From Halobacteriales archaeon YIM A00010 (GTDB lineage Archaea > Halobacteriota > Halobacteria > Halobacteriales > Haloarculaceae), in assembly GCA_025041175.1 (NCBI GenBank), contig JAKCFJ010000002.1:62001-126000 (forward strand): DNA of 64,000 bases, read 5' to 3'. The notes beneath the pieces are model-generated. The model was not told the origin of the DNA and did no database searches. It worked only from the letters and a program-made list of their open reading frames with translations. Positions 235 to 46,023 of this stretch are shown piece after piece. The position numbers were made by a program, and so were the translations under genes. Positions within the stretch are counted from its first letter, which is position 1; each line of letters begins with the position of its first letter.

Positions 235-1389
235 TCAATCGTTCATCGTTCGAGTATAGCGCTCGTCTGGTGGGGTCCAGGATCGGTCACTGTCACCGAC
301 GTAGATGGACACTGGGCGAATTATCTTGTTATCCGCTAACTGCTCGAGGCAATGAGCCGTCCATCCACCGACTCGCGACACCGCGAAGGTGGTCGTGAAC
401 AACTCCTGTGGGATGCCGACGCCATACAGGAGCACGGCGGTGTAGAACTCGACGTTTGTTTCGAGTTTGCGGTCGGGCTTGTGTTCGGCCAATTGGCGTA
501 CTGCAATCTCTTCAAATTCTTCGACAGTCTCGAAGAACACCCTCTCGTCGGAATCTGAGTAGAACTGTTGAGCGGCGTAGGAGAGGACCTCTGCACGTGG
601 ATCGCGCGTACGATACACCCGGTGTCCGAAGCCCATCACCCGCTCACCGGAATCGAGTTTCTTCCACACATAACGCTCCGGATCGCCAGATTCGTGCACT
701 TTGAGGAGCATCTCCAGGACCGGTCCGGGGGCTCCGCCGTGAAGTGGTCCCTTCAGTGACCCCGCTGCACCCGTCACTGCCGAAACGAGGTCCGACTCGG
801 TCGACGCGATAGACCGAGCGACGAACGTCGATGCGTTTAGTCCGTGGTCAATAACCGTGTTGAGGTAGGTTTCGAGTCCTTTCACGGCCGCCGGGTCTGG
901 CTCTTCGCCGGTCAACATATAGAGATAGTTCGCGGCGTGGCCGAGGTCCTCGCGCGGACTCACCGGCTCTTGACCCGAGCGATACCGCCAGTACGTCGCG
1001 ACGATAGTTGGGAGCACACTCACCAGTCGTTTGGCGTGGTCCGTCGGGTCCGTCACCTTGTCGCCGAGATTGGCTGCGGCCACGCCCATTCGCAGGACAT
1101 CCATTGCGTCTGCGTCTTCTCGTGCCGCCTGTCGAAGCACCTGTTGGACCTCCTCGGAGATTTCCCGATGGCCAGCGAGTTCCCTGCGGAACGATTCGAG
1201 TTCGGATTCAGTCGGAAGACGGTCGTTGAACAGCAAGAAAACGCTTTCTTCGTAGACCGCATTCTTGGCGAGTTCCTCAACCGGGAATCCCCTGATGATC
1301 AGCTCACCAGCCTCGCCATCGATGGTACTGAGCTGTGTTTCCGTGACAGCGATGCCTTCTAGTCCTCGGTGTAGCTCTTGGTCAGCCAT
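235..1389 (-). CDS. Citrate synthase family protein with Asp-to-Glu change at the catalytic acid
   Basis: 384 residues from the ATG at 1389 (MADQELHRG); a longer frame from 1452 adds an implausible basic leader. Citrate synthases condense acetyl-CoA (or propionyl-CoA) with oxaloacetate in the cytoplasm. Family motifs are clear: the N-terminal IDGEAGELIIRGFPVEEL, HGLNASTF (about 182), GPLHGGA (catalytic His about 217), GFGHRVY (second His about 257) and the C-terminal GWTAHCLEQ. The third catalytic residue, normally Asp in NVDxY, is Glu here (NVEFY, residue 314, codon 448-450), one base from Asp. It lies downstream of a second paralogue on the same strand, 243 bp away. It may be a slow citrate or methylcitrate synthase, or a regulatory paralogue. 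Confidence 0.85.
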   Translation of the reverse strand: MADQELHRGLEGIAVTETQLSTIDGEAGELIIRGFPVEELAKNAVYEESVFLLFNDRLPTESELESFRRELAGHREISEEVQQVLRQAAREDADAMDVLRMGVAAANLGDKVTDPTDHAKRLVSVLPTIVATYWRYRSGQEPVSPREDLGHAANYLYMLTGEEPDPAAVKGLETYLNTVIDHGLNASTFVARSIASTESDLVSAVTGAAGSLKGPLHGGAPGPVLEMLLKVHESGDPERYVWKKLDSGERVMGFGHRVYRTRDPRAEVLSYAAQQFYSDSDERVFFETVEEFEEIAVRQLAEHKPDRKLETNVEFYTAVLLYGVGIPQELFTTTFAVSRVGGWTAHCLEQLADNKIIRPVSIYVGDSDRSWTPPDERYTRTMND

Positions 1390-1632
1390 ACCCATCCGTA
1401 TAGAGAAACAAAATGAATGGAGATAGGGCTTCGGAGAACGACATTTCCCCATCTGATGCGAATCCCTCGCCAGAAGAGGCTACCATCAAACCCGAGAGAC
1501 GCCATCCACTCTCGGCTGTTCCTTCGTCAGATGGCTCGGAGACAGTTCTATCGGACGTGTTCCAGCAAGCCTCAAACTACGAAGTAGTATCAATATGAAT
1601 GGGTAAATCTGCTTTTCCCGTCGATGACCCGT

Positions 1633-3078
1633 CTACTCGACTGGACGTGCGAGCAATTGCTCGTCGTCGAGAAGCATCTCAACGACCTTCTGACCCCCAT
1701 CAGTCAACGAGTAGCCGGCCTCCGTATTCGTGATGAAGATGCCACGAAGTTTGCGGAGATGATAGTTGAACCGTCCCTTATCTTCTATCGAACTCTGTGC
1801 TCGGATCGACGAGTACGAAAGTGGTTTTGCCGACTCATACAGAATCAATAAGAGCTCTAGCCGAGTTGGTTCTGAAAGAGTACCAAGGGTTGAGGAAATT
1901 CCCTCCAGTGCGCTGGGTGAGGGCGGACTCGAATCGCCAGCGACGTATCTATCAGAGCGCGAAACCCACGACCGTTCCTCCGGACCGACATATCGTGTCC
2001 GAGGACGAAGTAGTGTCTCGCTCTCGAGCTGTTCGAGATAATGTGCCATCCAGCCAGCGGAGCGTCCGAGAGCAAAGATCGCAGTGGACAACTCCAGCGG
2101 AATGTCGAGTCCGTGAAGGAGAGCCGCGGCGTAGTAATCGACATTCACGTGCATCTGCTGCTCGGGATAGTGTTCAGCGAGATATTCCTCTGCGGCGGCC
2201 TCGAGCTGCTGTGCGTTCCTCAGAAACGATGCCGAATCTCGGTTCTCGAAGACGCGTTCTGCTGCCCGCTTGAGAATGTTCGCCCGCGGGTCTCGTACGT
2301 TATAGACGCTGTGACCGAATCCAACCAACGACCCATCATTCTCGAGTCGCTGTTCGACGTATGTTGTTGGGTCTGTCCCCTCGTCAACGGTAGCGAACAT
2401 CTCGAAAATTCGTTTGAGTGCCCCACCGTGTCGCGGTCCCTTGAGTGCCCCGATGGCTCCAGTGGCCGCCGAGAATGGATCAGACCCGGTTGATCCGATA
2501 ATCCTGGCGGCGAACGACGAGGGATTGAGACCGTGTTCGATGATAGTTGTCAGATACGTCTCCAGGCCCTCAACGATCACTTCATCCGGCTCCACCCCGG
2601 AGAGCATATAGAGGAAATTCGCCGTGTGAGTGAGGTCTTGTCGTGGCTGTATGGGCTCTACCCCTCGACGATGCCGCCAGTAGGCCGCGATAATTGTCGG
2701 GCATATCGCGACGACGCGCCGAGTAGCCATCAGGGTGTCCTCGTCGTCAGCATGGAGGCTCCCAACCCCGAGCCCCATCTGAAGCACATCCATGGCTGGC
2801 ACACCCTCCTCTGCACCCGCCTGAATCAGCCTGTGGTCTGTGAGGCTTCGAGCGACTGAGAGTTCGTTCGTGAACCCGGCTAGCTCTTCGTCGGTTGGGA
2901 GTCGTCCGTTGAACAACAACCACGCTGCCTCTTCGTAGGAGGCGTTTTCGGCGAGATCTTCGATTGAAAACCCCTGAATGCGCAATTCACCGGTGTCGCT
3001 GTCGATTTCGGTGAGGCCAGTTTCAGCAACCGCAGTGGAGGAGAGGCCAGGATCAAAGACGGACGGAGTCACGGTCAC
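1633..3078 (-). CDS. Citrate synthase fused to a C-terminal winged-helix domain
   Basis: 481 residues from a GTG start (3078), about 100 longer than ordinary archaeal citrate synthases. Residues 1-380 are a full citrate synthase: HGLNPSSF, GPRHGGA (His 217), GFGHSVYNVRDPRA (His 256) and NVDYY (Asp 314), so the catalytic triad is present. Residues about 392-470 form a haloarchaeal ArsR-like winged helix (LSEPTRLELLLILYES, GRFNYHLRKLRG, YSLTDGGQKVV), the type usually found in stand-alone regulators. The joint is a short Ser/Pro linker (GDSSPPSPS). This suggests an enzyme that could bind DNA or be controlled through that domain; which of the two is inference. The next gene downstream is the Asp-to-Glu paralogue. 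Confidence 0.85.
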   Translation of the reverse strand: MTVTPSVFDPGLSSTAVAETGLTEIDSDTGELRIQGFSIEDLAENASYEEAAWLLFNGRLPTDEELAGFTNELSVARSLTDHRLIQAGAEEGVPAMDVLQMGLGVGSLHADDEDTLMATRRVVAICPTIIAAYWRHRRGVEPIQPRQDLTHTANFLYMLSGVEPDEVIVEGLETYLTTIIEHGLNPSSFAARIIGSTGSDPFSAATGAIGALKGPRHGGALKRIFEMFATVDEGTDPTTYVEQRLENDGSLVGFGHSVYNVRDPRANILKRAAERVFENRDSASFLRNAQQLEAAAEEYLAEHYPEQQMHVNVDYYAAALLHGLDIPLELSTAIFALGRSAGWMAHYLEQLESETLLRPRTRYVGPEERSWVSRSDRYVAGDSSPPSPSALEGISSTLGTLSEPTRLELLLILYESAKPLSYSSIRAQSSIEDKGRFNYHLRKLRGIFITNTEAGYSLTDGGQKVVEMLLDDEQLLARPVE

Positions 3079-8053: not shown

Positions 8054-8730
8054 CAGACGCCCAGCGCGTCGGCCACCTCGTCCAACGTCTCGACCGTCAG
8101 ATCGGGTTCGCCGTCGAACGGCTCCCACGGAGATCCGTTCCGATCGACCCAAACGGCCTGCATCCGAGCGTGTCGTGCGCCCATCACGTCGAACCAGCCG
8201 GCCGTGACGTGTGCGATCTCGTCGATCGGCGTCCCGGTCCGCCCAGCGGCGTGGCGATAGAGTTCAGCGTCCGGTTTGAACGTCCGGATCTCATCGGCGC
8301 TGATCGTGTCCTCGATCAGATCGCCAATGTCAGCGTGGTCGACCATCGACGCGAGCATTTCGGGATCCCCGTTGGAGACGACGTAACACTCGTATCCCGC
8401 ATCACGAAGCCGATCGATACCACCGCGAACGTCGTCGAACACGTCGAGTTCGTGGTAGACGGCGAGGATCTCATCACGCTCATTACGCGTGATGTCGACA
8501 TCGTAGGCATCGAGTGCGTACTGCAAGGCATCGCGGTTCATCTCGTAAAACGGCTGGTAGGCGTCGATATGGTTCGCAACGAACGTGTATTCCAGTGATC
8601 GTGCGCGCCAGAGCTTCGACACCGGTTCGGGATCGTCGACGCGGTCGGCCAGCGCCGCTTCGGCCGCGTCGACATCCACCAGGGTGCTGTACGAATCGAA
8701 CGTGATCGTCCGCACGCGATCGGGATCGAA
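8053..8730 (-). CDS. Haloacid dehalogenase, type II (HAD superfamily)
   Basis: 225 residues from ATG 8730 (MSFDPDRVRTITFDSYSTL). HAD hydrolases use an Asp nucleophile; the L-2-haloacid dehalogenase branch removes halide from 2-haloacids. Motif I is TFDSYSTLVD (Asp about 14), motif II YVVSNGDPEML, motif III FKPDAELYRHA (Lys) and motif IV HVTAGWFDVMGARHARM. The Tyr/Ser after Asp and the cap-domain sequence fit type II dehalogenases; a phosphatase cannot be excluded. The gene ends exactly at repeat A2, whose terminus supplies the TGA. Confidence 0.85.
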   Translation of the reverse strand, partial: FDPDRVRTITFDSYSTLVDVDAAEAALADRVDDPEPVSKLWRARSLEYTFVANHIDAYQPFYEMNRDALQYALDAYDVDITRNERDEILAVYHELDVFDDVRGGIDRLRDAGYECYVVSNGDPEMLASMVDHADIGDLIEDTISADEIRTFKPDAELYRHAAGRTGTPIDEIAHVTAGWFDVMGARHARMQAVWVDRNGSPWEPFDGEPDLTVETLDEVADALGV

Positions 8731-8804
8731 CGACATTACGATAGAAATGATGGGGACTGTCCTCATAATTCTCGGGTGTTTGTGCGGACCGAACCGCGTT
8801 TTTC

Positions 8805-8901
8805 ATACTGTCGGACAGGGGCGATCGCGTATCGGCTGCTGGTGAACCGACAGATAGCAGCTGGCTAGTCCGTCGCACTCCGTCCGCAGGTCCGACAGTA
8901 T
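8805..8901. repeat. Family A palindromic element, copy A3
   Basis: 97 bp. Left end ATACTGTCGGACAGGGG; right end GGTCCGACAGTAT. Its reverse complement is very close to copy A6 at the right edge (shared GTCGGACCTGCGGACGGA). Confidence 0.85.
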
Positions 8902-8978
8902 ACTGTAGCATGGCCCTGATGAGTACTAGCTCCACCTTGCTTGCTCATCACTCTTAAATACAGTTTATAATTCTGATA

Positions 8979-9427
8979 TATTTGGTGTCGAACGGGCTCA
9001 TTCGACCGTTCATAATTGGTTCACACGGCCGATCCCCAGCCTGAGGATAGACGAAGCCCGGATCACGTTGTCAATGAAACCGTGATCCAATGCAACGACG
9101 AGAAAGCAACGATTGGCTGCTTGAGCCGACAACAACCACGGTTCTCGTTCATTCGTTTCTCACTGAACTCGCCGAGAAACACGATGATGACGAGGCTGTA
9201 GTTCTCGTTGATGGCTCGCACTCGGTACAAAATGTGTGTCATCGACACGGTTTCGATTTCAGATACGAACAGCATGGAAATCGGAACAGCGTCGAACGTG
9301 TCTTTATCGAGGTAAAACGACACAAATATTTGTTTTTAAACTGTTTTAGCAATACCCACGAAGAAACTGCAAACGAGTGGCTCAGATCGTTTGCTTTCGC
9401 ATGGAATCAGCGTATCTGAACACCACC
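8979..9427 (+). pseudogene. IS6-family transposase, decayed copy
   Basis: Broken by stops and frameshifts but clearly related to the intact transposase at 27843-28535: FGVERAHSTVHNW, then in another frame EAVVLVDGSHSVQNVCHRHG, FDFRYEQHGNRNSVERVF, ETANEWLRSFAFAWNQRI. The N-terminal 60 or so residues are missing. The terminal repeat (ATCTGAACACC) is still seen at 9415-9425. This copy lacks the 57-bp hairpin insert of its relative and so shows the ancestral sequence at that point. Confidence 0.8.
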
Positions 9428-9945
9428 CATCATTCCACTAGCTATGCTATCTGGTTATTCCACCCGTACTTCTGTAACGGAGGGTTGTGTTTCATTGATA
9501 AAGGGTATTGGGTTGACTGGTCATCTAAGGTGATCGGACGAAATCACTACGCGTGCTGTCTCAATTTTCATAATTTATCGAAATGATCCGACGGACAGCG
9601 CGGTCCTCGCGGTGCGTCGTGCCGTCCCGAAACCGGCTACCAGATGATCGTTCAGGTGGGTCCGAGCAAACGATTCGGGGATGTTACAACAGTACTCCTG
9701 TAATGATCGAGATGGAATACGACGCATCCGGTCGAGGACGTGTTCGCAGCGGGAGACGCCTGGAAAGGGTCGTCTTCGCCGGCCGCTCCATCTTGCAGAC
9801 GCCGAGTAGCCATATCGATTTGATCGGGCTCAGCGTGGATTGACGCATATTTCGTTCGATGACTACGAACAGTTCTGAAAATATCGTCACTGATCACGCC
9901 TACGTATAACAACAAATTTATTGGAAACGGGACCAAGAAAGACGT
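9428..9945. other. Gene-free stretch
   Basis: No convincing gene. Frames on both strands between 9583 and 9936 are open, but their sequences fit no family I know. A TATA-like TTTATT at about 9918 precedes the IclR gene. Confidence 0.4.
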
Positions 9946-18880: not shown

Positions 18881-19348
18881 ATGACGACTGACACCGCTGT
18901 CGGCTATATCCGTCTTTCACAGGACGTGAAATCCCTTGACCGCCAGCGCCAGGATGTTGAGGAATACATCAACAAGAATGGCTACCCGCTCGATGAGATC
19001 TACAACGAAGGCAAGCGAACGTCTGGCTTCGATGCCGACCGCCCGGAGTACACGGCTCTCCTCGATCACATAGAGGGTGAGAGCATCGACGTGGTGATCA
19101 TCCCGAATCTCTCACGGCTCTCTCGGGATCGGAAAGAACGGTTGCGGCTCCTCCTCAATCTCGACGCCATCGGGGTGCAGCTCCACTCCGTCGACCTCGA
19201 TGACGAACCGGATTGGGGGCACCCTCTCGAACCACAATACAATAGCCTCCCTGGGCGTGTACCACACAGTAGATCACTCATGTCCCAGAACGATACCGAC
19301 GCTACGCTTTCAGCCATATTCAAGGAGGGCCATCAAGCAGTCCGATAA
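18881..19348 (+). pseudogene. Serine recombinase (resolvase), catalytic domain only
   Basis: The N-terminal 115 residues are a resolvase catalytic domain: AVGYIRLSQDVKSLDRQRQD (Ser about 13), GKRTSGFDADRPEYTALLDH and VVIIPNLSRLSRDRKERLRL. After about residue 118 (19230) similarity ends and the frame runs on to 19348 without sense; the DNA-binding domain is lost. The ATG overlaps the TGA of a 20-residue fragment (FEWTVKSGNTFELRVIKDDD) left after repeat B2, which suggests an original two-gene operon. Confidence 0.75.
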
Positions 19349-25718: not shown

Positions 25719-26507
25719 GTGTCTATGGCGTGTGTATGGTGATCTGAGGGTTGTCAAACGCATTTATCATCCGCGACAGATGGTGAAGCTGTTCTCGACA
25801 GCCTGAATTGCGATACATACGATCAATAAAGAATTGGCCTATCTGACTTCAGCTCCTCCCTGATCTGTGAGTCTACTCCTTCTGTCTGCACAGGGATAGT
25901 CTCGGCCAGAGAGCCATTGGTATCGTCCTGAGCGGATCTCGGTCGCTTTGAGAAATAGTAGTGCAAAGACGACGCCGGGTTCTTCGCCGACGCGACTACG
26001 CGGCGGACGACCTGATCCGGAAGCTCTTGGGGTGCGGGCGCGAGTCGTCCCCTGTCGACCTGCCGTCGAGTCCACCGTTGATGGCGGTCTCCGGGTGCCT
26101 AGATCGCGGCGGTGGCCGGCTTCACCATGTGGTCGCCAAGCCACCGCCGGGCGTCAGAGTCGAGATCGAACGGACCGGCCCGTACACGCTCGGCCCTCGT
26201 AAACTCGTTTCCCGACTGACCGGGCTTCAGCGCGAGGTCCTCAACGCGGCGGCGGCCGTCTTGCGGTCAAACCACCGGCGGAGGGCAATCGTGGCGAAGA
26301 GTGTGCGCCAGCAATCCGTCTCGTCGATCCCCGTCGGCCCCGGGTATCGTCGGACCCGATCCGTCCATCTTGACTCCAGAAACCGTGGGGAACATGCTCC
26401 ATTGAAGACCTGATTGGCCTTCTCGTCCCTTGTATTGTCAGAATTTGTGTGAATGCCCAAGTCAAATTCTTGGGGGTTTATACACAGGCAACCAGAATAT
26501 ATCAAAT
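25719..26507. other. Long stretch with only decayed sequence
   Basis: Higher GC than its surroundings and open in several frames from 25961 to 26413, so it was probably coding once. RLTGLQREVLNAA near 26215 recalls the HTH_10 start, but I cannot confirm it. Confidence 0.35.
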
Positions 26508-27494
26508 ATGGATGAGATAGAATTGATCGGTGATCACTACGAGTTGGGACGGCAATACGGGCAGATCCTCGACGACGTCGGGTTTGCTCCACAACCTATT
26601 TCGGCGGAGAAACGTCAGTTCGTCCGCGACTGCGAGCCGGCGGTGGAAGAACATACACCGTCTCTCCGTAAGGAACTCCGCGGTCTCGCAGACGCCGGTG
26701 ACTGGGACCTCGAACGGATCGAAGCGATGCCGCTCGCGCTGGGCTACGAGACCGGGTGTTCGGTGGTCGCCGTCTCGGGTGAACACACCGTCGACGGAAA
26801 ACCCCGATTCGGTCGCAACTACGACTTCTACGAATCGTTCGGGGATTTCTCGGAATTGTACCGGACCCGGCCGACCGACCACCTCGCCAGTGTCGGGTGT
26901 TCGGACCACTGGGTCGGTCGGCACGACGGGATCAACGAGGCGGGGGTGGCGATCGGACACACGTTCGTTCCGAACGACGGCACCGAACCGGGCATCATGT
27001 TCGGACTCGCCGCTCGCGCGGTCCTCGATACCTGTCGGACGGTCGACGACGCGGTGTCTTTCCTCGAACGCATCCCCCACGCACGGAACACGAACTTCCT
27101 GGTCGTAGATGCCGCCGGCGACATCGCCTCGATCGAGGCGAGCCCGGAGGTAGTCGTGACGACACGACCCACCAACGGGTTCGGTGCCGTCACGAATCAC
27201 TTCCAGTCCGAGTCGATGCTCGAGTACGAACACATCGAGGAACGATCCGAGAGCAGCGAAACCCGACTCGAGAACCTCGACAACTGGTTCGACACGCAGC
27301 AGGATGGATTCGACACGGTCGACGTCCAGGGTGTCCTCACGGACCCCAAAGACGGGGTCTGCTCGTGTGCGAACGGGAACGAGGACGATCCGATCCTCAC
27401 CCTCTGGTCGTGGGCGGTGGCACTCGGCGATGAAACCGGCACACTCGCAAAAGGGGGCCCAGACGAAACGCCGTATACGTCCGTCGAGTTGTAA
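26508..27494 (+). CDS. C45 family peptidase / acyl-CoA:6-APA acyltransferase-like Ntn hydrolase
   Basis: 328 residues from ATG 26508 (MDEIELIGDHYELGRQYGQI). Family marks: GYETGCSVVAVSGEHTVDGK (candidate nucleophile Cys about 84), PRFGRNYDFYESFGDF, GINEAGVAIGHTFVPND and FLVVDAAGDIASIEASPE. The Cys lies within the chain; these proteins often mature by self-cleavage before the Cys. They hydrolyse or transfer acyl groups on amides such as N-acyl amino acids. The stop overlaps the ATG of the next gene (TAATG), a former operon whose second gene, perhaps a transporter, is cut short. Confidence 0.85.
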   Translation: MDEIELIGDHYELGRQYGQILDDVGFAPQPISAEKRQFVRDCEPAVEEHTPSLRKELRGLADAGDWDLERIEAMPLALGYETGCSVVAVSGEHTVDGKPRFGRNYDFYESFGDFSELYRTRPTDHLASVGCSDHWVGRHDGINEAGVAIGHTFVPNDGTEPGIMFGLAARAVLDTCRTVDDAVSFLERIPHARNTNFLVVDAAGDIASIEASPEVVVTTRPTNGFGAVTNHFQSESMLEYEHIEERSESSETRLENLDNWFDTQQDGFDTVDVQGVLTDPKDGVCSCANGNEDDPILTLWSWAVALGDETGTLAKGGPDETPYTSVEL

Positions 27495-37882: not shown

Positions 37883-39022
37883 ATGTACTACAACTACAGG
37901 TATCGATTGAACCCGACAGCAGACCAGCGTAAGACGCTGAACTACCACCGTGATACCTGTAGACAGCTCTACAACCACGCTCTCTATCGTTTCAATCAGA
38001 TTCCTGAATCGGCGGGGACACTCAATCAGCGCGTGCGAACAATCCGTGACGAACTCCCCGACCTCAAAGGCTGGTGGGACGCCTTGACTGACGTGTATGC
38101 GAAAGTGCTCCAACCCACCGTCATGCGGATCGAGCACAACGTCACGGCGCTCGGCGAACTCAAGGATCGTGGCTACAACGTCGGTGAACTCAAGTGGAAA
38201 CCACCACGGGAGTTCCGCAGTTTCACCTACAACCAGTCTGGCTTCGAACTCGACAAGAAGGGTGGTCAGACTGTGTTGTCCCTCTCGAAACTGGCGAATA
38301 TTCCGATTCGAATGCACCGACCACTCCCCGAAGCAGCGACGATCAAAGAGGTGACACTCAAGAAAGAACCGACGGGTGAGTGGTTCGCCATCTTCGGGAT
38401 TGAATTCGACCGAGACCCACCGGAGAAACCTGACGAAATTACTGACGCAGTAGGGATCGACGTGGGCATTCTCAACTATGTTCACGACACCGACGGAACG
38501 GCTGTCGGGTCGCTTGACCTCACTGACGAACGCGAACGACTGGAACGCGAGCAACGGACGTTGTCGCGCAAACAGCACGGGTCTAACAACTGGAAAAAGC
38601 AACGTCAGCGCGTTGCAGAGTGTCACGCCACGATCAAACGCAAGCGGCGGGACTTCCTCCACAAACTCTCGACGTACTACGCTACTGAGTACGATCTCGT
38701 CGCCGTTGAAGCGCTCAACGCCACGGGGCTGATGGAACTCCCATCGAACAGTCGTAATCGCGCGTCAGCTGCATGGGGTACCTTCCGGCGGATGCTCGAA
38801 TACAAGTGTGAACATAACGGCACACATTTCGTCGCTGTTGAGCCAGCTGGAACGACCAAAGCGTGTGCAGCCTGCGGTGTCTCGACCGATAAACCATTGT
38901 GGGTCCGCGAACACTCCTGTCCAAGCTGTGGCTTCGAGGCCGATCGAGACTGGAACGCAGCCTACAACATTCTTTCTCGGGGAATCAAGCACGTAGGAGT
39001 GGGACACTCCGAATTGACGTGA
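37883..39022 (+). CDS. tnpB: RNA-guided endonuclease TnpB (IS1341 type), C-terminus cut by a hairpin insert
   Basis: 379 residues. N-terminal WED-like strand (YRYRLNPTADQRKTLNYHRD), helical recognition region, RuvC parts AVGIDVGILNYVHD (Asp 193) and YDLVAVEALNATGL (Glu 276), zinc ribbon C328/C331/C346/C349 and EADRDWNAAYNIL (third Asp). The catalytic set is intact. TnpB cuts DNA guided by an RNA from the element's right end. The TGA at 39020 is the first codon of a 60-bp hairpin insert; after it the same frame resumes as PVETALPTGTTNVPAQRVVE and ends at 39184. Without the insert the protein would have 413 residues. There is no tnpA nearby. Confidence 0.92.
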   Translation: MYYNYRYRLNPTADQRKTLNYHRDTCRQLYNHALYRFNQIPESAGTLNQRVRTIRDELPDLKGWWDALTDVYAKVLQPTVMRIEHNVTALGELKDRGYNVGELKWKPPREFRSFTYNQSGFELDKKGGQTVLSLSKLANIPIRMHRPLPEAATIKEVTLKKEPTGEWFAIFGIEFDRDPPEKPDEITDAVGIDVGILNYVHDTDGTAVGSLDLTDERERLEREQRTLSRKQHGSNNWKKQRQRVAECHATIKRKRRDFLHKLSTYYATEYDLVAVEALNATGLMELPSNSRNRASAAWGTFRRMLEYKCEHNGTHFVAVEPAGTTKACAACGVSTDKPLWVREHSCPSCGFEADRDWNAAYNILSRGIKHVGVGHSELT

Positions 39023-41026: not shown

Positions 41027-43660
41027 TTAGCGGCCGATATCGAGCAATATGTAGTCGTGGTCGGGAGTGTAGCGCCGGAACAGGAGACTGTTCGTGAGCA
41101 CCGACACCGACGAGAACGCCATTGCTGCTGCGGCCAATACCGGCTGGAGCAGTCCGAGCGAGGCCAGCGGAATCATCGCCGTATTGTACCCAAGCGCCCA
41201 GAAGAGGTTCTGTGTGATCTTCTGGAGCGTACCATCGGAGATGCGAATCGCTTTCACGACATCGAATGGATCGTCACGCATCAACGTCACGTCTGCGGCC
41301 TCGATCGCCACGTCAGTACCCGAGCCGATCGCTGTTCCAACGTAGGCAGTCGCGAGTGCTGGTGCATCGTTGACCCCATCACCGACCATCATCGCTCGCT
41401 TCTCTTCTGACTGGATGTCGTCGACGACAGCAGCTTTGTCCTCGGGAAGGACCTCTGCACGAACATTCGCGGGATCGATCCCGACCTGTTCGGCAACCGC
41501 ACGCGCCGTACGCTCGTTGTCGCCGGTCATCAGATGGATCTCGACGCCCCGATCGTGCAGCGCCGAGACGGCTTCGGTGGCGCTCTCTTTCACCGTGTCT
41601 GCATCGGCCACGAGACCGATCAGTTCGCCCTCATATGCGACGAGCATCGCGGTCTTGCCCTCGGTCTCCAGACGTTCGAGATCATCCTCGGCGGGCGCGG
41701 GATCGATGTCATTGTCACGCATGAGCTTGCGGTTGCCGACGAGTACCTCACCATCGTCGACAGTCGCGCGGACCCCGTGGCCCGGCACGTTCTCGAAGTC
41801 GATGGGATCGGGCACGTCGATCCCCCGCTCGGTGGCCCCCTCGACAATCGCCTGCGCAAGGGGGTGCTCACTCCCGGATTCGGCACTCGCCGCGATCCGG
41901 AGGACGGCCTCCTCGTCAGGTCCCGATACTCTATCAAGTCCGGACCGTTCTTGGAGTGCCTGCGCACCGCCGTCGGTCGCCGTCTTGGAATCATCACCAT
42001 TGGTGGCAGTGTGAGTTCCATCAAGGGAAACGACGTCGGTCAGTTCCATCTCACCCGCAGTGAGCGTCCCGGTCTTGTCGAACACCACCGTATCAACATC
42101 CTTCGCGCGTTCGAGGATATCGCCTCCCTTGAATAGGACGCCGTTTTTCGCCCCGATGGAGGTGCCGACCATTGTTGCGGCAGGCGTTGCGAGTCCCAAT
42201 GCACACGGACAGGCAATCAGTACTGCCGAGGCGAAGACAACCACTGCGAACTCGAAGATTGATACCGTGCCGCCAGCGACCGCCGGACCACCTTCGACAA
42301 GCCCCCACAACGGGAGCGCGCCGACGAATCCAGCGAGTGCTTCGGGGAACAGATACCAGACGATGCCCCAGAGTAGCGCATTCGCAATCACGATCGGGAC
42401 GAAGTACGCCGAGATGCGATCGGCGAGGTTCTGAATGTCAGGCTGTCGGCTCTGTGCCTCTTTCACCGTCTGAACGATCTGCTGGAGCGCCGTATCAGAC
42501 CCGACCTTGGTGGCTTCAACAGTGAGGACGCCGTTTTCGTTGATGGTCGAACCCACCACCTCGTCGCCTACCTTCTTCTCGACGGGCACCGACTCGCCGG
42601 TGACCATCGATTCGTCGACCGCTGACTGCCCGTCGACAACGGTACCGTCGGTCGGGATCTGCTCGCCCGGCCGGACCTTTATCCGGTCGCCGACGCCAAC
42701 GTCTTCAAGCGGAACCTCCTCTTCGTTACCCTCCTCGTCAACAACAGTTGCGGTGTCGGCCTCCATTTCGAGCAGTTGCTGGAGTGCCTCGCCGGCTTGG
42801 CCTTTCGAGCGGGCTTCGAGGTAGTTGCCGAGCGTGATGAACACGAGGATGAGCGCGGCCGTGTCGAAGTACAGACTCCCCGCGAGCACACCCAGTAGCA
42901 CGACCACCGAGTAGAGATAGGCCGTCGAGGAACCGAGCGCTATCAGCACGTCCATGTTCGCGGTGTGGTTCTTGACGAGCGCCGTGTAGGCGTTCTCGTA
43001 GAACGGCCGCCCGAGTACGATTTGGACGGGGGTCGCAAGCAGGAACTCCACCCAGCCGAACTCCACGCCGAAAATCGTCTCGGGGAGTGCGCCGCCGCCC
43101 AACAACAGCTTCTCGACCATGAACGCGATCAGCGGCAGCGATAGCGCCGCGCCGAACAGCGTGAGTCGAAGTTGGCGGCGGATTTCGCCCTCGCGTGCGG
43201 CATCACGGCGGTCCTGCTCGGATTCCTCACTCCCGTCGCCGCGCACGGGCGAGTAGCCGGCGTCCTCGATCGCGTCGTACAACTGCTCGCGGGTAACCTC
43301 TGCTGGGTTATACTCGACAGTCGCCTCGTCAGTCGCGTAGTTAACCTCTGCCGAGAGAACGCCCGGTACGTCCGTGAGTGCTGTCTCATTCGTTTCGGCG
43401 CAGTTCGCACACGTCATATCTGTGATCCCGATCGACGCCGAGGTACTCACTGCGCTGTACCCGGCGTCCTCGATCGCTGTATAGACCTCCGCCAGCGTCG
43501 TATCCGTGGGATCGTATGCAACGCGCCCCTCGTCAGTGGCGAAATTGATCGTCGTCTCGTTCACCCCATCGAGCGCTTCGACAGCCTGCGTTATCGTCTG
43601 GGAACAGTTCGCACAGCTCATCCCCTGAATATCGAGCTGTGCTGTTCGTGATGTCATCAA
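41027..43660 (-). CDS. copA: Copper-translocating P-type ATPase
   Basis: 877 residues. Two N-terminal heavy-metal domains (GMSCANC 13-19, DMTCANC 81-87), eight membrane helices, the ion-path motif [20 protein letters not shown] (about 484), phosphorylation site [18 protein letters not shown] (Asp about 527), HP motif [15 protein letters not shown] and hinge [20 protein letters not shown]. The CPC plus C-terminal YN and MxxS motifs ([27 protein letters not shown]) define Cu+ exporters (PIB-1). It removes cytoplasmic copper. The sensor gene lies 101 bp upstream on the same strand. Confidence 0.95.
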
Positions 43661-43761
43661 TAGTAGTTACGGGATCCTCCTTCAATGGCCTTGTCCTTAT
43701 GATTTCTCGGTTTGAAGATCCTCTGAATTTGTGATCCAAACATCGGGGTGACTGGTTTGCG

Positions 43762-44358
43762 TTAGGGTGTTGCCTCCTCATTTAGCCGCTCGTATTGGGC
43801 TTCAAAGCGAGCCTCACACGAGGGACAACAGAACTGGTAGAGGTCGTCGCCGATGCGAGCGGCAACGCCCTCGCTTGTCACCGTGTTCCCACACTCGGCA
43901 CACGTCAGCGCGAATTCTGTTCCATCAATGCTGGGTGTCCACTCGGCTCCCGTCAGAAGTGTCACATCGTAGTCAGCCACGCGTGTCATATCGAGGGTTT
44001 CTGCCAGCCACGCCGGGACATCGCCGTCGACGACACGCGCATAACAGAGGAGCTTGTTCTCTGCGGTCGTAAAGATATACTCGACTGCGTCGGCGTCGAG
44101 GAGTGCCTTGTGGACAGTGTCGCGCCCGCCAGTCTCCATTGTGAGTGTCAGGAGGACGGGAACGCCTTCGCGGAGCTGCGACCGATCGACATCGACTGTA
44201 AATCGCTGGATGATTCCCATTCCCTGAAGTCGGGCAACACGATCCGAGACCGCTGGTGCGGAGAGATCGACTACCTCAGCGATCTCACGCCATGGACGGC
44301 GCGCATCGCTCATCAACAGCTCAAGGATTTCGAGGTCGGTTTCGTCAAGATCACGCAT
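43762..44358 (-). CDS. Lrp/AsnC family regulator with C-terminal TRASH metal-sensing domain
   Basis: 198 residues from ATG 44358 (MRDLDETDLEILELLMSDAR); the longer frame upstream to 44682 is not native. HTH WREIAEVVDLSAPAVSDRVA, Lrp ligand domain in the middle, and a TRASH end CAECGNTVTSEGVAARIGDD, YQFCCPSCEARFEAQY with the metal-binding cysteines. In Halobacterium a regulator of this build controls the copper P-type ATPase. It lies between copA (same strand) and copZ (divergent, 132 bp), so it probably senses copper and controls both. Confidence 0.9.
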   Translation of the reverse strand: MRDLDETDLEILELLMSDARRPWREIAEVVDLSAPAVSDRVARLQGMGIIQRFTVDVDRSQLREGVPVLLTLTMETGGRDTVHKALLDADAVEYIFTTAENKLLCYARVVDGDVPAWLAETLDMTRVADYDVTLLTGAEWTPSIDGTEFALTCAECGNTVTSEGVAARIGDDLYQFCCPSCEARFEAQYERLNEEATP

Positions 44359-44490
44359 ACAGTAGCAAATGTGCGTGACGAACAAATGTGCTTCCCGATG
44401 TCCAGTTCGGAACCAAAGGGATAGGAGACCTCTCACCCGCAACATTATAGTGAAAATGAAGATAAAGCAGGCGACCGTAGCATCTCTTGT

Positions 44491-44688
44491 ATGACGACGA
44501 CCATACGCGTCGAAGGAATGAGTTGTGGCCACTGCGAGCAGACCATCGAGGAAGCCCTCCGTGAGGTTGCGAACGTCTCGGAGGCTCACGCGGATCGTGA
44601 GACGGAAACCGCCACAGTTGAGGGGGACCCAGAGACCGCTACCCTCGTTCAAGCGGTCGAAGACGCGGGCTATACCGTTCACGCATAG
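44491..44688 (+). CDS. copZ: Copper chaperone, heavy-metal-associated domain protein
   Basis: 65 residues: one ferredoxin-like HMA domain, TTIRVEGMSCGHCEQTIEEA (metal site CGHC), ending VEDAGYTVHA. Such chaperones bind Cu(I) in the cytoplasm and hand it to the ATPase. It is divergent from the TRASH regulator and likely shares its control region. Confidence 0.9.
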   Translation: MTTTIRVEGMSCGHCEQTIEEALREVANVSEAHADRETETATVEGDPETATLVQAVEDAGYTVHA

Positions 44689-44886
44689 AGCCTGATCAGT
44701 TACTAGGGACAGCGATCCCGGAGACCGACCGGGAAGATGCTGTTCTGTCGTTCAATTCGCTGCTGGATCGAACGCCACGCGCCTGAACAGCCACAAATAC
44801 CGCGTGATAGGCGACGTATAGCCATCGAAGAGGTCGAGATCCTCATCCGCGGCGTTCGACTCCCCAGCCGTAGTCGTCAGTAGCAA

Positions 44887-46023
44887 TCAGTCCCCCTTCG
44901 GAATGGCCTCGGCGAGACGTCCACCACGCTCTTCGAAGTACGTGACGTATACCTGTGCGAGGAAGATGAGGGCAAACACACCATCTAACACCATCGTATA
45001 TCCACCGGGTTTCGTTCCCCCGACTGCGCCGCGGTTCGGGATCGCTCCGAGTCCGGCCCAGAGACCGTGCACGACGAGCCCCGAGAGTGCCGCCGCTCCA
45101 AAGATGAGCACAAACATCGTTGCGGCCATCCGCCAGCCGTAGAACTTGCGATACATCTGGACAATGTGGGGGACGATTAAGTCGGCGAAAATGTAGGACA
45201 TCACGCCGCCGAACGGAATCCCGCCTTGCCAGAGCACGAGTGCAAGTGGGACGTTCGCGACCGAGCAGACGAACGTAGCGACACCGATCACCACACCGAT
45301 GACGACGCCGAAGACGACCCACGCGAGCGTTCCTTCCGGGAAAATCGAGAACAACTGGTCCCAGGCCGACTTCGGCACAAATCCCTTGATGAGACCAGCG
45401 ATGACGAACCCGACGACAAGTTCCTTCCAGAGCATCCGCCACTCTCCCATGGCGTTACTCGAGGCCTTTCGCCATCCGGAGAGGGTGAGCAGTTTCTCCC
45501 GCCAGCTGTGGTTTTGGACCCAGTCTTCGTCCGTCCCGTGTTCGTGAATGTCTTCCCTGAGATTCCGGGCGTGCTCTCGGGCGTCCTCGATCCAGCCGTC
45601 TGGGACGACGTATTTAAACCCGCTCGCGAGCAGGATGATGAGCACGAATCCACCGATGAAGTCCGCAACCATGAACGTCGGGCTGAGCACGATCCAGATG
45701 ACGATCCCGATCTCGATAACAAGGTTGGTAGCTGCGAACTCGTAGGCTGCCAGTGAGGTTGCAGCTGAGGCACCCTTCTGATAGAGCGATCGCGCCGTGG
45801 CGACCGCCGCGAATGAACAGCTCGATGAAATGAAGCCGAAAAACGAAGCGATCCCGATTTCACGCCAGCTCTCTCCGCCGATGAGCTCACCGAGACGGTC
45901 CTGGCTAACGAACGCCTGGACTGCCCCCGAGATCGTGAACCCGGCGACGAGCGGCCACCAGGTGACGATGACCATCTCGACGATGAACGTCCCCGATTCG
46001 AATAGGTTCTGTTGGATCGTCAT
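44887..46023 (-). CDS. Permease of the ArsP/DUF318 type (metal or metalloid efflux)
   Basis: 378 residues with eight to ten helices in two halves. Marks: WWPLVAGFTISGAVQAFVSQ, GFISSSCSFAAVATARSLYQ KGAS, FAATNLVIEIGIVIWIVLSP and GVATFVCSVANVPLALVLWQ GGIPFGG. The paired cysteines (SSSCSF, FVCSV) lie in facing helices, as in the DUF318 permease group, which includes trivalent methylarsenical exporters. Next to the copper genes it may export a thiophilic metal. Its ATG overlaps the stop of the small membrane gene upstream by four bases. Confidence 0.8.
   Translation of the reverse strand: MTIQQNLFESGTFIVEMVIVTWWPLVAGFTISGAVQAFVSQDRLGELIGGESWREIGIASFFGFISSSCSFAAVATARSLYQKGASAATSLAAYEFAATNLVIEIGIVIWIVLSPTFMVADFIGGFVLIILLASGFKYVVPDGWIEDAREHARNLREDIHEHGTDEDWVQNHSWREKLLTLSGWRKASSNAMGEWRMLWKELVVGFVIAGLIKGFVPKSAWDQLFSIFPEGTLAWVVFGVVIGVVIGVATFVCSVANVPLALVLWQGGIPFGGVMSYIFADLIVPHIVQMYRKFYGWRMAATMFVLIFGAAALSGLVVHGLWAGLGAIPNRGAVGGTKPGGYTMVLDGVFALIFLAQVYVTYFEERGGRLAEAIPKGD

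Follow-up and report, generated by a model that had tools for sequence, protein, structure and literature searches.

In Bacillus subtilis, the accessory citrate synthase (CS) CitA has a dedicated neighbouring regulator, CitR, which is of the LysR type. GfcR was considered as a haloarchaeal precedent. A likeness in principle is offered by the bacterial MocR/GabR proteins, where an N-terminal winged helix is joined to a PLP aminotransferase domain of the aspartate aminotransferase fold, so that an enzyme fold is likewise reused as the sensor of a winged-helix regulator; GabR is described as activating genes of GABA metabolism (PMC6917764, PMC4944035). In Caulobacter, the citrate synthase CitA has been assigned a regulatory role that is independent of its catalysis and acts on cell-cycle control via CtrA (PMC7083601). 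The paralogues citB and citC have consecutive locus numbers, and CitC failed to support CS function in E. coli (PMC7083601). The excerpted text of that paper describes no DNA-binding domain for Caulobacter CitA, unlike the protein reported here. A survey of archaeal fusion proteins mentions citrate synthase, in its excerpted text, only with ATP-citrate lyase (PMC11237513). Our literature search found no citrate synthase with a helix-turn-helix (HTH), and a search on the winged-helix family DUF7347 found no paper.

The window, by which we mean the whole 64,000-nucleotide stretch of DNA analysed, is part of a 1.02-Mb contig in a 5.97-Mb haloarchaeal genome (genome G183 belongs to the same genus). 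It encodes a protein in which a DNA-binding domain and a ligand-binding enzyme fold are joined in a single chain, followed by a stand-alone, accessory-type CS gene (Table 1). We conclude that this fusion is very probably a one-component transcription regulator that would use its CS domain as the sensor and control the adjacent sister CS. This reading is favoured because it explains together the pairing of the two genes, a candidate operator between them, the conservation of the recognition helix and the residue changes in the CS domain. CitR is not a CS, whereas the haloarchaeal regulator itself contains a CS domain; for MocR/GabR, which are bacterial and carry the winged helix at the other end of the chain, no homology to the fusion is claimed.

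Table 1. Features of the fusion module (positions in the window)
Feature	Position	Strand	Sequence	Remarks
CS-winged-helix fusion gene	1633..3078	-		Single open frame; longest version 481 aa
Citrate synthase domain, about residues 11-377	1948..3048	-		His217, His256, Asp314 and Arg265/339/358 present; Arg216 replaces Leu
Ser/Pro-rich linker, about residues 378-397	1888..1947	-		Low model confidence
DUF7347 winged helix (Pfam 398-468), with recognition helix region	1675..1887	-	IEDKGRFNYHLRKL	Core pLDDT at least 90 when modelled alone
O1, second, weaker operator copy	1601..1618	-	GGAAAAGCAGATTTACCC	15 nt past the fusion stop; 168 bp from O2
O2, candidate operator, GGAGAA-N6-TTCTCC	1433..1450	-	GGGGAAATGTCGTTCTCC	Only exact GGRGAAN6TTCTCC in the 5.97-Mb genome
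Putative BRE-like and TATA-like element of the partner CS	1423..1432	-	GAAGCCCTAT	
Partner citrate synthase, accessory type, predicted target	235..1389	-		Glu at the catalytic Asp position (TNVEFY)

The domain composition of the fusion was clear from Pfam. Citrate_synt (PF00285) matched residues 11-360 over the whole profile (positions 1-357 of 357; E 8.5e-104, 347.8 bits against a cut-off of 27), and DUF7347 (PF24038) matched residues 398-468 (E 9e-20, 71.1 bits against a gathering cut-off of 27.6). These were the only two domains. Pfam placed no HTH_17/MerR domain at the N terminus and no PLP aminotransferase domain with an N-terminal GntR-type winged helix of the MocR/GabR kind. On narrower models the fusion scored below the cut-offs, with 336.4 bits on the haloarchaeal CitZ equivalog NF041301, which requires 550, and 12.5 on HTH_metalloreg (NF033788, ArsR/SmtB), for which the cut-off is 55. 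The initial annotation had described a complete CS, a Ser/Pro linker and a winged helix in one protein, and this description holds for the single 481-residue frame; the residues His217, His256 and Asp314 align where it had placed them, and the segments SEPTRLELL and GRFNYHLRKL that it had quoted are both present in the translation. The start of the gene is probably the GTG at 3072, since the alignment with relatives begins at residue 3, as does the annotated Halomontanus gene.

Several other genes in the window were noted in passing. Positions 41027-46023 hold, in a row, an apparent heavy-metal P-type ATPase, an AsnC-type regulator with a TRASH domain (43762-44682) and a permease-like protein. 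This looks like a metal-handling cluster, in which the domain scan covered the regulator. A TnpB-like protein of the IS605 family (with a Cas12f1-like TNB domain) is encoded at 37883-39022, a short protein with a resolvase N-terminal domain, perhaps a mobile-element remnant, at 18881-19348, and a protein with an acyl-CoA:6-aminopenicillanic acid acyltransferase domain at 26430-27494.

Relatives of the fusion were found in haloarchaea. A search of 391 genomes of the class with the fusion as query gave full-length matches in 10, counting the window's own genome, and four family searches recovered full-length fusions in 8 of 146, 8 of 125, 2 of 170 and 1 of 28 genomes; a second match in the 28-genome set (G518) was without the winged helix. 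The genome sets overlap, and together they amount to 19 genomes (handles up to G528), which with a plasmid of Halomontanus rarus give the 20 fusions considered below. Carriers include Natrialba sp. SSL1, Halogranum rubrum and Actinarchaeum halophilum. Both domains of the fusion are under purifying selection, with dN/dS below 1 throughout. The ratio was lowest in the winged helix in seven of nine pairs, and in the other two the winged helix was not the most constrained part. The CS domain of the fusion was as constrained as the partner enzyme in some pairs and more loosely constrained in others.

The residues of the CS domain were examined for what they imply about its function. We take their roles to be those in the pig and archaeal enzymes, with Arg265, Arg339 and Arg358 binding oxaloacetate and His217, His256 and Asp314 being catalytic. 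The two His and the three Arg are kept in all 20 fusions. Directly before the first catalytic His stands an Arg (Arg216) in 20/20 fusions, where 40 of the 42 other rows of the alignment have Leu. Arg257, which follows the second catalytic His, has been lost by 17/20 fusions, and 14/20 have Thr in place of Asn312. The position of the catalytic acid holds Asp in 11 fusions and Glu in 9. This pattern can be read as a dicarboxylate site that is kept beside an acetyl-CoA side that has been remodelled. A Foldseek search with the model of the full fusion returned CS matches, but with high rmsd.

In the window protein, most of the CS active site is preserved, and this fusion may keep catalysis. It could then be a bifunctional protein with citrate (or methylcitrate) synthase activity that, in the manner of a trigger enzyme, also acts on its neighbour as repressor or activator. 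The presence in the window protein of both catalytic His, Asp314 and the three oxaloacetate Arg would fit such a role, as would purifying selection on the CS domain. Against it stand the four residue changes listed above, some of which recur in bacterial HTH-CS proteins (see below), and the greater divergence of the fusion than of the partner between clades (51% versus 67% identity, G000-G092). We therefore regard a bifunctional protein as somewhat unlikely, and the dedicated regulator remains our preferred reading.

A stand-alone accessory CS follows the fusion downstream on the same strand in 20/20 cases; in G032 the two genes are 3.6 kb apart, and in G430 the partner frame is broken in a fragmented assembly. 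Other flanking genes are common only to close relatives among the 10 modules compared, so the fusion and its partner stay together while the neighbourhood changes. In the window, the longest frame of the partner extends from 235 to 1452 (-) and would overlap operator O2, while homology puts its start at the ATG at 1389. The Glu at the catalytic Asp position of the window partner, on which the initial annotation was silent, is found in all 32 partner and stand-alone accessory sequences, and is a feature shared with B. subtilis CitA (2c6x, citrate synthase 1). The third CS of the window genome, which we label the housekeeping type, lies on another contig. The megaplasmid of Haloferax mediterranei encodes a stand-alone CS similar to the partner type, probably gltA (HFX_6170), the knock-down of which is described as raising PHBV by about 40% (PMC8387396).

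A tree of 67 CS domains, from which the broken partner of G430 (P_G430) was left out, places the 20 fusions in one clade (100/99). This clade nests within the haloarchaeal accessory-CS clade (100/100) and apart from the housekeeping enzymes. In the explanation that we favour, the fusion would have arisen by duplication of an accessory CS and capture of a winged helix. Two related genomes show the module decaying. In G368, a single CS (L086, minus strand, 8574-9707) resembles the G394 fusion over its first 100 residues and the partner over the rest, as expected of a natural recombinant of the two; the flanks of this locus are colinear, and winged helix and operators are both missing. In G022, DNA similarity to a module begins 14 bp after the fusion stop codon and O2 is present, so that of the module only the fusion gene is missing.

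The strict pairing (20/20) and the common descent of the two proteins could also reflect mixed dimers of fusion and partner, in which the partner enzyme would titrate or gate the regulator. Such dimers are plausible because both subunits contribute to the active sites of a CS. The fusion and partner in the window are only 47% identical, which speaks against this arrangement, and we consider it unlikely.

The sequence between the two genes was searched for a binding site. The initial annotation had seen a possible target in the neighbouring CS and had proposed the 1390-1632 gap for a DNA-binding assay, and the palindromic candidate operator O2 lies in this gap, at what would be the promoter of the partner. 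Within 230 bp around the partner start, at least 10 of the 12 O2 positions are matched in all 20 module promoters but in only one of 12 stand-alone relatives (Fisher p 9e-8, a significance that relatedness inflates), the other 11 lacking the site. The single exception is G022, otherwise similar to a module but without the fusion gene. In an exhaustive search of 53,248 palindromes (4096 half-sites by 13 spacings), GGAGAA-N6-TTCTCC ranked first (20/20) and the runners-up were its variants or shifted versions, while the best palindrome in 15 resampled sets reached 4 to 6 and never more than 6. The O2 half-sites hold 1.69 bits per column, compared with 0.38 in the preceding 140 bp (nine representatives). 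In all 20 modules, O2 is followed after exactly seven bases by a TA at the TATA-like position, and the operator therefore adjoins the putative BRE. O2 would thus be a cognate operator placed at the promoter of the predicted target.

The second copy, O1, is less regular. It is weak in the window (9.8 bits), and a copy near the fusion stop was scored in 16 of the 20 modules and not in the other 4. As to a possible DNA loop between O1 and O2, 7 of the 16 modules in which both score have the sites 166-168 bp apart (about 16 turns), but in several others the spacing (150, 140, 173 and 163 bp) departs from a whole number of turns. Upstream of the fusion gene, a scan to 1.5 kb found nothing of the O2 type above 9.5 bits. 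The region upstream of 3078, which the initial annotation had also put forward for the assay, is therefore the less promising half of that experiment.

O2 might be bound by another factor, either a stand-alone DUF7347 protein or a global regulator, with the winged helix of the fusion acting elsewhere. Stand-alone DUF7347 genes are common in the window genome and could supply such a factor, O2 occurs without a fusion in G022, and the motif is not private to the module, since it has many further one-mismatch matches across the genome (27 on the forward and 20 on the reverse strand, 47 in all, compared with 5 and 4, or 9, for the control). The co-occurrence of site and protein points the other way: O2 tracks the fusion (20/20 versus 0/11 with G022 set aside), and in the recombinant G368 both are lost. 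We regard binding by another factor as improbable. Exact matches to the motif in 20 genomes fall in modules in 20 of 33 places, the G022 remnant included. Of the 13 outside modules, 9 lie inside predicted genes and 4 are intergenic, including 2 duplicate copies ahead of a DUF7347 regulator gene; none of the 13 established a further metabolic target.

The modelled fold of the winged helix resembles ArsR and MarR proteins (for example SqrR, TM 0.68), with no match reaching E 0.001, and a sequence search of this domain alone against solved structures gave weak matches only. The recognition helix, DKGRFNYHLR, is nearly invariant across the fusions. Stand-alone haloarchaeal DUF7347 (ArsR-like) regulators belong to the same winged-helix family, with 36-45% identity to the fusion domain. 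No CS domain was seen in them, and their recognition helices start mostly with DSG or DTG, as opposed to the DKG of the fusions. One genome allows helix and site to be compared outside the module. Contig 4 of G411 (L185, L186) carries a duplicated DUF7347 regulator of 326 aa with the same DKG start and a perfect GGAGAA-N6-TTCTCC in its own promoter, and a match between helix and site is therefore supported. Some winged helices serve dimerisation or protein contacts instead of DNA binding, and in the model the long last helix of the fusion domain resembles a dimerisation helix; with so invariant a recognition helix and an operator next door, such a role is very improbable. An accidental fusion or assembly error can be ruled out on the strength of 20 full-length relatives, counting that of the window, in a single clade at 100/99 and of purifying selection on both domains; split homologues and a lost stop codon, which the initial annotation had named as signs of accident, were looked for and not found, all 20 relatives being fused.

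For the one-component regulator that we favour, the following mechanism can be proposed. The CS dimer would present two C-terminal winged helices, which would bind O2 right beside the BRE/TATA element of the accessory CS gene, perhaps assisted by O1 about 170 bp upstream. A CS ligand, most likely oxaloacetate or citrate, would be held by the three conserved arginines, and its binding would alter the closure of the dimer and hence the binding of DNA. Expression of the sister enzyme would in this way follow how much of its substrate or product is present. The domains, the conserved pair, the operator with its fixed distance to the TATA-like element, the kept ligand-binding residues and the altered CoA-side residues can be read off the DNA; from these we infer binding of O2 by the fusion protein itself, its sensing of a ligand and the direction in which it would act. 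On this last point we lean slightly to activation rather than repression, because O2 lies just upstream of the BRE at a fixed phase and not over the TATA element or the start site.

The initial annotation knew of no described CS with a domain of this kind. This needs correcting, as bacterial databases contain CS proteins with an N-terminal MerR-like HTH. These HTH-CS proteins, such as WP_236762366.1 from an Agrobacterium pAt plasmid, are called "citrate synthase family protein" and share with the haloarchaeal fusion the joining of a CS to a DNA-binding domain; the bacterial HTH is N-terminal and of the MerR/HTH_17 family, whereas the haloarchaeal domain is a C-terminal DUF7347. Relatives of the Agrobacterium protein occur in 77 plasmid records (40 among the matches listed). 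HTH_17 was matched in 6/6 bacterial proteins tested, in some below the curated cut-off. In nine bacterial regions (L195-L203), the HTH-CS gene lies beside a divergent stand-alone CS in three (Agrobacterium, Pararhizobium and Ensifer) and beside other divergent genes in four (a CoA transferase twice, a glucarate transporter and an HMGL-like enzyme), while in two regions, which carry no annotation, an adjacent CS was not seen. Examples of MerR/HTH_17-CS genes that are divergent from a stand-alone CS or other metabolic genes can be found in L195 (2725-5101), L203 (1327-3619) and L201, where they are annotated merely as citrate synthase family protein or the like. Our literature search found no functional study of these bacterial proteins.

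The bacterial proteins show part of the same residue pattern. The Arg after the second catalytic His is lost in 6/6, the oxaloacetate Arg are kept in 6/6, and an Arg precedes the first His in 3/6. The structure alignment was made without bacterial rows L052, L063, L064 and L068 (for brevity) and L058 and L070 (which contain stop codons). By phylogeny, the bacterial HTH-CS domains form a separate deep clade (100/100). A joint clade with the haloarchaeal fusions was not rejected by the AU test (p-AU 0.17), which used a tree that left out F_G430 and thinned the partner, stand-alone and housekeeping rows. Separate origins of the haloarchaeal and bacterial fusions are favoured because domain order and HTH family differ. 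We put forward tentatively, as an idea with a little less than an even chance, that CS has become a dedicated ligand-sensing transcription factor at least two times, in haloarchaea and in bacteria. In each, the oxaloacetate site would have been kept and the acetyl-CoA side similarly remodelled (Arg before the first His, Arg after the second lost), and at least in some lineages the protein would have come to lie beside an accessory CitA-type CS as its target. This parallel makes a general rule testable, namely that the sensor site is kept while the CoA side changes.

An annotated example of the fusion is labelled citrate/2-methylcitrate synthase, so that a probable regulator would enter metabolic models as an enzyme. 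With operator, target and ligand site all predicted, the regulator reading is testable in one experimental round. If it is true, the haloarchaeal protein would let oxaloacetate or citrate be sensed directly in the control of archaeal genes, archaea would gain a direct readout of one of these metabolites, and citrate synthase, which catalyses the entry step of the Krebs cycle, would join the short list of enzyme folds that have been reused as sensors of transcription factors.
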